In this document: one piece after another, positions 3,091 through 29,662 of the stretch
Position numbering within the stretch: the stretch's first letter is position 1
How the letters are laid out: each line of letters starts with the position of its first letter
Assembly: GCF_000367765.1 (NCBI RefSeq)
Contig: NZ_AORI01000001.1
Span: forward strand, 62,001 to 126,000
Reading direction: 5' to 3'
Source: Metamycoplasma auris 15026
GTDB taxonomy: Bacteria > Bacillota_I > Bacilli_A > Mycoplasmatales > Metamycoplasmataceae
Length of the DNA: 64,000 nt
Translations under genes and position numbers: made by a program
The notes under the pieces: model-generated
The model's input: the letters and a program-made list of their open reading frames with translations, nothing else
Told to the model about the DNA's origin: nothing
Database searches by the model: none

Positions 3091-3960
3091 AATAAGTTTT
3101 TCTGCATTAATCTTAATTGAATTAAGACTATATTTTTCAATTAGAAAAGTAGCTTCTGAAGATAAAAAAATATTTTTTAAATCAAGGAAATCTTCTTTAA
3201 TATCATCTAAATGAAAATCAAAGACTAATTGTGCAATTACTTTGTTTCTAAAAGCAAAATCTTTATATTCAATAAATTTCGAAGCCCAAGTGCTTTTAAT
3301 GTCTTCTAAATTTGCATAAATGTTTTCTAAATTTTGATATTCATTTAAGAGTTTTGAAGCTGTTTTTGGACCAATGCCTTTTATGCCACTAAAGTTATCA
3401 CTACTATCCCCAATGATTGCTTTATAATCAACGACTTGATATGGTTCAATGCCGTATGAAGTCTTAAAATTTGCATTATCTAATATGAAATACTCATCTT
3501 TATTTTTTTTAATAATTGACGTTTTTTCATCAATTAATTGGTTCAAATCTTGGTCAGCTGAAAAAATCAATTTATTTATATTTTTATATTCAAAACATAA
3601 TTTGGCAATAATATCATCAGCTTCATAGCCATTTTTTTCAATATTTCTTATTTTTAGGGAACTTAAAATTTGTTTAATTAAATCAAGTTGGAAATAGAAA
3701 CTTGGTTCCATTTTGCTTCGATTTGCCTTATACATATCATACATTTGGTGTCTAAAAGTTTTTTCTTTAGCATCAAAAGCAACAAACAAATGTGTTGGGC
3801 GATGTTCATTAATTAAATTAAAAAGGCTTTTAAAAAAAAGCACAACTTCATTTGTTGAAAAACCATTTTCATCCGTAAGCATAATATTGGATTTGTTTAA
3901 AGCAAAATATGACCGGTAGGCTAAATATGTTCCATCTATAATTAATAGTTTATTATTCAT
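3070..3960 (-). CDS. polA: 5'-3' exonuclease (DNA polymerase I N-terminal domain only)
   Basis: Structure-specific 5'-3' exonuclease/flap nuclease, 296 residues, for RNA primer removal and repair. It begins LLIIDGTYLAYRSYFAL, the classic PolA N-terminal strand with its first metal-binding Asp, and continues with VAFDAKEKTFRH, GYEADDIIA, SADQDLNQL and a helix-hairpin-helix region GIKGIGPKTA. No polymerase or proofreading domain follows, so this is the stand-alone form usual in mycoplasmas. Its ATG overlaps the dnaE stop by one base (TAATG), so it is probably translationally coupled to dnaE. The stop lies inside the terminator shared with valS. Confidence 0.92.
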   Translation of the reverse strand: MNNKLLIIDGTYLAYRSYFALNKSNIMLTDENGFSTNEVVLFFKSLFNLINEHRPTHLFVAFDAKEKTFRHQMYDMYKANRSKMEPSFYFQLDLIKQILSSLKIRNIEKNGYEADDIIAKLCFEYKNINKLIFSADQDLNQLIDEKTSIIKKNKDEYFILDNANFKTSYGIEPYQVVDYKAIIGDSSDNFSGIKGIGPKTASKLLNEYQNLENIYANLEDIKSTWASKFIEYKDFAFRNKVIAQLVFDFHLDDIKEDFLDLKNIFLSSEATFLIEKYSLNSIKINAEKLIKKLAKN

Positions 3961-26932: not shown

Positions 26933-27014
26933 ATAAAAATAATACATATTTTTATATAAAAAATATGGAATTTAAGAAATAAGAATGCATAAGGTATAAA
27001 TACTTAACCTAAAT

Positions 27015-27064
27015 AAAAAAGTGATTTTAAAAGTCTTAGTTTTAGCTTCTAAAATCACTTTTTT
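27015..27064 (-). terminator. Terminator after the racemase gene
   Basis: A perfect 15-bp stem, AAAAAAGTGATTTTA / TAAAATCACTTTTTT, with a 20-base loop, placed 20 bases after the minus-strand racemase stop and giving a T-run on that strand. Confidence 0.85.
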
Positions 27065-27084
27065 ATTTTAAAAATTTAGTTTGT

Positions 27085-28153
27085 TTATTTCTTAAATTCT
27101 TTTTTTACATAATTTGAATTAAATAAATAAAGTAAACTGCCTCAGTCTAAATCAAAAGCAACTATGTCACCTGGTTTGTAAGTAATTTTGCTATCTTGGG
27201 CATTAATAATTAAATGATCAGAAGAGCCTCCTAAGATTTTTAGGTTTTTATCTCTTGGAAACATTGCATCAAACATTGTATCTAGTTTTCCAATTCCTAA
27301 AATTAGTCTTTTAATATCACCAATATCCTTAAAATATGGCACATGCCCAAAAGCATCAATCCCACAAGCTCCAACTGGTAGAGAGGACTTATAATCAACC
27401 TCAATTACTTCAGCTTCGCAATAAAAAGCATCACGATACATTCCATCTATAGTTAAGCGATACATATCTTCAGTGCCAAAAATCATTGCAAATCCCATTC
27501 TTAAGAAATTAATTTCTTTAGGCATTCTATTTTCTCAAACCATATGTAAACTTAAGGAATTTCCTCCTGACATGTGGCTTAATTTAATTTTTAATTCATC
27601 TTCAATTTCATGTTGTAATGCAACAAATTGAGCCATAAGTTCATTTGAAGGAATTCTTGCACCATAACATCCAAAATTGCAACCTAAACCAATTAGTTTA
27701 ACCCCTTGTAGTTCATTTATTTGTTTTGTTATTTGCAGCGTTTCTTCTGGTAGATAACCTTCTCTTCTATCTCCTAAATCAACCATTAAAATAATTTCAT
27801 GTGGTTTAAGATTTCTAGAAATAACATATTCACTAATTTTCTTAATAACATTAATATCCCCTTGCAACGATGAATCACATAGTTCAAGCATCCTTGGAAT
27901 TTCAGAAATCATAGGAATTCTTAGAAGCTGCTTGTGACCTGGTATATCTTTATAAACTTCAAAATTATCCAGTCTTGAATCACCAAAATATCTAATTCCA
28001 GCTTCATAGTATAGTTCCACCATTCTTTTATTGCCACAAAATCCTTTAGTAACAGCTAAAACTTCGATACCTTTTTTACTACAGATTTCAATTGCTTTTT
28101 TAACATTGTTTATAAACTTCTTTTCATCAATAACAATTTTTAGGAAAACTCAT
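27085..28153 (-). CDS. Alanine/ornithine racemase-family PLP enzyme, frameshifted near the start
   Basis: PLP-dependent racemase of the alanine/ornithine racemase family (fold type III TIM barrel), about 355 residues. The PLP-binding Lys lies in LAVTKGFCGN, and later family features are RYFGDSRLDN, LLRIPMISEIPRM, ILMVDLGDRREGY, GLGCNFGCYG, HMSGGNSLSLH and LRMGFAMIFGTE. A good Shine-Dalgarno (AGAAGG) stands 6 bases before ATG 28153, which begins MSFPK. The main frame then requires one base fewer: a run of five A (plus-strand T 28137-28141) should be four to give MSFPKIVIDEKKFINN. As written the gene has no usable in-frame start ahead of the PLP Lys. Cause: real frameshift, switchable homopolymer or sequencing error. 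Confidence 0.8.
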
Positions 28154-28470
28154 ATATGCCTTCTTTTTTTAATAATTAATTTAGTTTAGTTTTCTATAAA
28201 TTAATTATATTTGATATTTACAACCCTATTGATAATGATTATTTTTTAGCATTCAAAAAACTTCATTTTTATTTTTTTATTGCCTAAAAAATAAATAAAA
28301 ACAGATTGAAATTCAATCATTATTTCCAATGAATTTAAATCTTTTTCAATACTTTATTCAATCATTTATTGAATTATTTACTTATAATTCTTGGTTTAAA
28401 TAAGATCTATAGGTCAATTATTGAAATTAGATCTTAAATACCTAAAAACTAAAATTTAATAGGAGATAAA
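28154..28470. other. Intergenic region with a cluster of TTCAAT/ATTGAA dyads
   Basis: No plausible gene over 317 bases. It is exceptionally AT-rich. Three dyads, GATTGAA-A-TTCAATC (28304-28318), ATTCAAT-N5-ATTGAAT (28356-28374) and TCAAT-T-ATTGA (28414-28424), have centres 54 bases apart. A -10 element and a leader hairpin lie at the right end. Confidence 0.55.
28383..28436 (+). promoter_or_regulatory. -10 element and leader hairpin of the poly-G lipoprotein gene
   Basis: TATAAT at 28383-28388, then a 9-bp inverted repeat TAAGATCTA / TAGATCTTA (28401-28409 and 28428-28436) whose loop contains the palindrome TCAATTATTGA. The hairpin would begin about 6 bases after the expected transcript start. 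AGGAGA at 28461-28466 is the ribosome binding site. Confidence 0.5.
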
Positions 28471-29236
28471 ATGATTAAGAAAATTGCATTACTACTAAGT
28501 TCATTTGTAACAATTAGTCCAACATTGATTGCTGCATCATGTCAAAATAGCAATAATGCCAATGTTGACAAATCAAATGATCCTAAAGAAAATAAATCAG
28601 AAAAAACTGCCAATGAAAAAGATACAAAGCAAAATTAAGGTGGTGTGTATACAACTCCAAAGTCAACTCCTGAAGGAATAATACCTGAAAAGGAAAATGA
28701 AAATGAAACTAATAGGGGGGGGGGTTGAGAGTCAACCATCTACTCCTAATTTAGGTGGTGAAGCTGAGTCAGAAAACTCATTAGGTGATTCTTCTTCAGG
28801 TATTGAAACTCCTGAAGAAAATAAACAAGAAGAACCACAAACTCAAGGTGATTCTTCAAATGAAATTACCAATGAATTACCGAATGAAAATGAAAAAATC
28901 CATAAGGAAAATGAAGATTTTTTCAATAAAATAAAGAAATACAATAAAGAAAAAAACGAAGCCTGAAAGGGTAAACAAGGTTCTTTAGGTCATAAGTTTG
29001 AAGACCACATTCGTAACTATGTTGATCTTGTTGGTTTTTCATCCCGTTTATTTGAAATTGTAGGTGACATAGCTGACTATAGCACATATTCAGAGTACAG
29101 ACAAAAAGAAAACTATACCGATTCAGAAGCTAAAAAAGATAATTCCAACTGAGCTGAAATAGTTAAAAACTATGAAAAAATAATGGATCCTTATATTCCT
29201 AAACTAAAAGAATTCGTTGAAAAAAACATTAAGTAA
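28471..29236 (+). pseudogene. Lipoprotein gene interrupted by a stop codon and a G10 tract
   Basis: ATG 28471 follows AGGAGA and starts a clear lipoprotein signal, MIKKIALLLSSFVTISPTLI, with lipobox IAASC. That frame runs into TAA at 28636 after 55 codons, yet coding-like Pro/Glu/Thr-rich sequence continues in the same frame to a run of ten G (28715-28724). After the tract the coding frame shifts: 28697-29236 encodes a further ~170 residues (VESQPSTPNLGGEAESEN... then an ordered C-terminal part ending KLKEFVEKNIK). A tract of 9 or 12 G would join the frames, but the TAA would still block translation. It is a decayed gene or a phase-variable one now off. Family not recognised. Confidence 0.7.
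28715..28724 (+). repeat. G10 homopolymer tract inside a lipoprotein gene
   Basis: Ten consecutive G in very AT-rich DNA. It would encode Gly-Gly-Gly in the coding frame and is the kind of tract that slips during replication. Confidence 0.95.
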
Positions 29237-29256
29237 TTTTCTTGATCAGTTAAGAA

Positions 29257-29286
29257 AAAATCTAGGTCTAAAAAACCTAGATTTTT
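29257..29286. terminator. Bidirectional terminator after the broken lipoprotein gene
   Basis: AAAATCTAGGT / ACCTAGATTTT with a 7-base loop, A-run before and T-run after; its right end overlaps the stop of the convergent minus-strand gene. Confidence 0.85.
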
Positions 29287-29662
29287 AATTGATAAAAATT
29301 AATTTTGCTGTATTTCTTACAATAATATTTTTATTTTGTAATAAGTCATAAGTAAAAGAAATCTCTTCTTTGCTAATTATTACTTTAATTAAATATACTT
29401 CTAAAAAAATTCAATCTTTTTCTGAAATATTTAGTTTATTTTCAACATATTGATTTTTTTTCATACTTAGACTTTGGGCTGCATAACTAATATTAATTTC
29501 ATCATCACTAACATCTAGTACACAATGCATTCCTTTTTTATCATCAAATTCAATATGACTGAATTTGCCTTTTTCTTCTTCTAAAAAATCTACGTATTCT
29601 GTTTCAATGACTTTTTCTTCATAAGTGCTAAATGAAGAAATTAAAACGTATTTTAATTTCAT
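29285..29662 (-). CDS. Small hypothetical protein downstream of gltX
   Basis: A 125-residue cytoplasmic protein with alternating beta-strand patterns ([59 protein letters not shown]) and no signal or membrane segment. The size and all-beta look recall the DUF1934/YwiB calycin-like family, but I cannot confirm this. One UGA is Trp (EKDWIFL). Its ATG lies inside the end of gltX, overlapping by 10 bases, so it is probably translated from the same mRNA. The stop falls in the terminator. Confidence 0.7.

Follow-up and report, generated by a model that had tools for sequence, protein, structure and literature searches.

A ten-G tract in an interrupted lipoprotein gene of Metamycoplasma auris: probably a former switch, now locked off

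A run of ten G residues inside a lipoprotein gene of Metamycoplasma auris 15026 raises the question of whether the gene is phase variable or decaying, the two possibilities named in the first-pass annotation that drew attention to it. The run lies in a 64,000-nucleotide stretch of contig NZ_AORI01000001.1, which we call the window and to which positions refer unless stated otherwise. Direct reading of the sequence places exactly ten G at 28715-28724 on the plus strand, at the point where a linker gives way to a C-terminal part and the reading frame changes. The draft genome of this strain, which had been swabbed from the ear of an Alpine ibex, was assembled with Newbler from Illumina and 454 reads (PMC3707572), and with 454/Newbler data the count of ten G may be off by about one.

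The tract had been called extraordinary for DNA this rich in A and T, and the numbers bear this out. No other run of G or C in the window exceeds five residues, and the 767,867 bp (18 contigs) of the M. auris genome contain no second run of at least nine G. Markov models of orders 0 to 2 predict between 5e-5 and 3.5e-4 runs of this kind in each window; above order 2, the tract contaminates the model. The gene thus carries a homopolymer in its coding sequence that is far above chance expectation.

M. auris reads TGA as tryptophan (code 4), and with this code positions 28471-29236 can be read as a single gene consisting of a lipoprotein signal, a low-complexity linker and a helical C-terminal part. 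The first 55 codons (28471-28635, plus strand) encode the signal peptide (MIKKIALLLSSFVTISPTLIAASC) and the start of the linker, and they score +0.40 bit/codon as coding sequence, in the N-terminal frame only. A good Shine-Dalgarno sequence (AGGAG) precedes the ATG at 28471, and the lipobox, AASC, is shared with other M. auris lipoproteins. A signal peptide with a lipobox is therefore present, but the earlier description of it as perfect was slightly strong, because its scores with the NCBIfam models for mycoplasma lipoprotein signals narrowly miss the cut-offs (18.3 against 22 and 18.4 against 19.3). Codon 56 is an in-frame TAA (28636-28638, plus strand), upstream of the tract, as the first-pass annotation had reported. 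Past this stop, the linker (GGVYTTPKSTPEGIIPEKENENETN, 28639-28713, plus strand) keeps to the N-terminal frame with a coding score of +0.44 bit/codon, which was unmatched by any 25-codon sample in a wrong frame. The frame then changes at the tract, at codon 82, and the remainder of the linker and a predicted helical C-terminal part of about 115 amino acids follow at 28727-29236 on the plus strand, with the stop codon at 29234-29236. Taking the N-terminal frame as reference, the C-terminal one (28727-29233) is at +1, and so the earlier arithmetic, that ten G shift the frame and nine or 12 G would restore it, is right. The C-terminal frame is open for 169 codons, which would happen by chance with a probability of about 1e-6, and its codon usage is normal (+0.39 bit/codon).

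Each of the three segments (N-terminal, TAA to tract, and C-terminal) lies near the 72nd percentile of working genes, and the codon score of each exceeds all 4000 samples drawn per wrong frame. Because the codons from the TAA to the tract have kept the N-terminal frame, we are dealing with one gene that has two lesions; by codon statistics, 28471-29236 is one interrupted gene. A probable intrinsic terminator follows the stop codon at 29256-29291 on the plus strand, where the RNA can be folded into a hairpin (AAATCTAGGT / ACCTAGATTTTT) followed by a T run; the fold of 29237-29300 has an energy of -17.3 kcal/mol. A consensus terminator scanner did not list this hairpin, and consensus promoters around the gene were no more frequent than expected by chance.

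Beyond its signal, the lipoprotein appears to be an orphan, as judged by sequence comparison. Searches for homologs of the C-terminal part in 97 relatives and in 135 genomes of the family returned weak matches only (E values up to 1). The best of these were to seemingly unrelated proteins, namely RNase R-like, rRNA-methylase-like and membrane proteins, and they were rejected. The Pfam and NCBIfam collections contained nothing credible for the lipoprotein, and plasmids, viral contigs and the PDB contained no match to it. A structure model of the C-terminal part is helical and of low confidence (pLDDT 52). The protein also falls outside the Mbov_0729 or Vsp-type family, with 18.3 bits against a cut-off of 22 for NF033817 and no match to NF046046.

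Slipping G tracts were said to be a known way to switch surface proteins, and there is precedent for this in M. bovis P68 and in the P48-like gene of M. agalactiae (PMC2824730). The P68 tract has 8-10 G among four strains, and nine G give the full-length protein, and the P48-like gene (MAGa1620) has ten G, from which switching has been inferred (PMC2824730). Like them, the M. auris gene encodes a mollicute lipoprotein with about ten G in the coding sequence, and the length of the tract sets the frame. However, P68 and the P48-like gene have their tract close to the signal peptide, at the 5' end, with no other lesion reported, and its length differs among M. bovis strains. The M. auris tract comes later, in a linker beyond codon 81 and past a nonsense codon, and the protein is unrelated. 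A CpG methylase of M. agalactiae also has a coding poly-G tract (6-11 G) whose length decides truncation, and variation in its length within cultures was measured directly (PMC9465063). That system is a DNA methylase with switching shown by fragment analysis, whereas the M. auris gene encodes a predicted surface protein. M. fermentans P78 (cited in PMC2831843) resembles the M. auris gene in that a homopolymer in the coding sequence turns a surface lipoprotein on and off by frameshift, and it differs in that the tract is poly-A, is at the 5' end and has been demonstrated experimentally to switch.

The lipoprotein gene has a divergent neighbor encoding an alanine-racemase-like PLP enzyme (alr, 27085-28154, minus strand), and comparison with relatives indicates that this gene is frameshifted. 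Its fifth codon has A5 where the relatives have A4, so that the start and the first codons are out of frame. The two genes are inserted together between orf125 and plsY (27000-29290). Three close relatives (G021, G009 and G011) have the gene order gltX-orf125-plsY without this segment, and in two more genomes, G010 and G020, different lipoprotein genes lie close to the orf125/plsY junction. In the relatives examined alr is preceded by tyrS, which is on another contig in M. auris, and an alr-like gene was not found in 8 of the 24 Metamycoplasma genomes at an E value of 1e-20. A search for repeats flanking the relocated segment gave weak AT-rich matches and no clear insertion element. The two genes with broken frames that a crude screen of the window picked up adjoin each other in this one segment.

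As the gene stands, translation would end at the TAA (codon 56), before the tract (codon 82), and the 55-codon product is the same however many G the tract has. Tract length alone does not decide between a full-length and a truncated protein, and slippage alone cannot now switch the M. auris copy because the TAA precedes the tract. Programmed frameshifting and transcriptional slippage at the tract were also considered and set aside, since the TAA comes first. The gene has the multiple inactivating lesions of a pseudogene (the TAA and the frame change) and has kept the codon signature of a working gene. Since the gene's roughly 255 codons contain no lesions beyond these two, the inactivation looks recent. 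The original alternative, phase variable or decaying, seems to be a matter of succession: the tract is of the class associated with phase variation in the genus, the present copy is unswitchable by slippage with a TAA upstream of the tract, and alr is broken too.

The reading that we favor as probable is that 28471-29236 was formerly a switchable poly-G lipoprotein gene that is locked off in the sequenced strain and is starting to decay. The gene would have encoded a surface lipoprotein whose lipid anchor was joined to the C-terminal part by a linker, with the poly-G tract in the coding sequence of that linker. As long as the frame was unbroken, slippage of the polymerase on the G residues would have toggled the full-length protein through frameshifts, in the manner of M. 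bovis P68. The TAA at codon 56, ahead of the tract, would then have locked the gene off. This presumably happened recently, and the other gene of the relocated segment, alr, is likewise frameshifted. We infer the past switching by analogy, and surface exposure and the order of the two lesions are also deduced. Against this reading, the protein is without a homolog, so that the expected frame is not displayed by any intact relative, and the tract length comes from a 454 and Illumina Newbler assembly, in which it may be off by about one.

An alternative is that the species still has a working phase-variable lipoprotein here, which most cells or strains switch through the G tract. The TAA would then be peculiar to this isolate, or a minority state, or an error in the sequence. 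Codon usage and open frames on both sides of the lesions that equal those of working genes would agree with this, as would the intact Shine-Dalgarno sequence, the probable terminator and the activity of the same class of tract in relatives. However, a substitution error is unlikely at about 50x coverage and the adjacent alr is broken too, and we consider a live switch unlikely.

What kinds of gene carry such tracts in related organisms bears on the favored reading and on a second alternative, namely that this is an ordinary pseudogene and its G run a coincidence. A search for G9 in 24 Metamycoplasma genomes found 17 distinct tracts of at least nine G in nine of the genomes, two of them intergenic and 15 genic. 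All 15 of the genic tracts, the M. auris one included, are in restriction-modification (R-M) genes or in genes for surface or secreted proteins, that is, in gene classes that are switchable in relatives. Nine are in R-M genes (three N6/N4 Mod, three HsdS, HsdM, GmrSD and a C5 methylase). The other six are in genes for surface, secreted or repeat proteins, which comprise, besides the M. auris gene, an endonuclease I lipoprotein and a lipoprotein with the tract inside its signal peptide; three genes of this class have no family name and were assigned by signal, anchor or repeat structure. The reading frame shifts at the tract in most of the genic cases. Within M. auris, genic runs of six or seven G are in housekeeping or ordinary membrane genes (among others secY, secA and nadE, as we take them to be from their sequences), and the G8 and G10 runs are both in lipoprotein linkers. 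From this survey, poly-G tracts seem to be commonly used as switch elements in the R-M and surface genes of Metamycoplasma.

Two lesions and a broken neighbor within one relocated segment are what an ordinary pseudogene might show. But drift would not be expected to produce ten G in DNA of 27% G+C, none of the genic tracts of at least nine G in the genus falls outside the R-M and surface-type genes, and the codon signature is still intact, all of which make an incidental run a poor prospect.

A third alternative is an assembly artefact, in which the homopolymer has been miscounted and the frame really runs through the tract. The 454/Newbler data and the one-base difference in the A run of alr are in its favor. 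However, the 52 open reading frames of at least 150 amino acids in the window contain 916 A or T runs of five or more, which implies that homopolymer errors are rare there, although the screen for broken genes was a crude one; moreover, the TAA would halt translation ahead of the tract anyway. We therefore regard an artefact as highly improbable. Barely credible is a pair of separate genes, a 55-amino-acid lipopeptide and a 179-amino-acid cytosolic protein starting at ATG 28697, since, although both frames are open and coding-like, the coding signal in the N-terminal frame between the TAA and the tract would be left unexplained and the downstream frame would have no signal and start within a surface-type linker.

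If the gene was indeed formerly switchable and is now locked off, the locus would be a Metamycoplasma addition to the poly-G lipoprotein switches known in M. bovis and M. agalactiae. It also illustrates that a slip tract alone does not make a gene switchable, because a stop codon ahead of the tract can disable the switch. M. auris and M. agalactiae have the caprine ear canal in common, and gene exchange there has been suspected (PMC3707572). More speculatively, the orf125/plsY junction might be a turnover site for lineage-specific lipoprotein genes in Metamycoplasma, at which a poly-G switch gene is being retired after relocation. If this were true, the locus would show directly how switch loci are gained and lost.

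The second-longest G run in M. auris, a G8 at positions 3333-3340 of locus L101 (G000:C2), falls within the linker of an Mbov_0729-family variable surface lipoprotein (110.6 bits to NF046046 and 39 bits to NF033817), whose gene is intact and in tandem with a similar lipoprotein gene. The G8 and G10 genes have a matching layout, with a lipoprotein signal, a Gly/Pro/Thr-rich linker with a G run, and a C-terminal part; they differ in that the G8 is in frame in an intact gene of family NF046046/NF033817, and the two C-terminal parts are without detectable homology.

Some other tracts deserve mention. The tract inside a lipoprotein signal peptide is an in-frame G9 in genome G012 (locus L048, 1501-1509). 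The R-M genes with G9-G12 tracts (loci L025, L035, L029, L030, L040, L045, L047, L027 and L032, each near position 1501) are candidate phase-variable methylation or restriction systems across Metamycoplasma. Finally, tracts of A13-A16 precede several of the Vsp-like lipoprotein genes in M. auris (L097 at 2492 and 3447, L099 at 1984 and L101 at 2679), and in three of the Vsp-like genes the arrangement TTGGCA-A(13-16)-GTAAAAT is found about 90 bp before the ATG, a context that resembles the promoter-spacer switch of the M. hyorhinis vlp genes.
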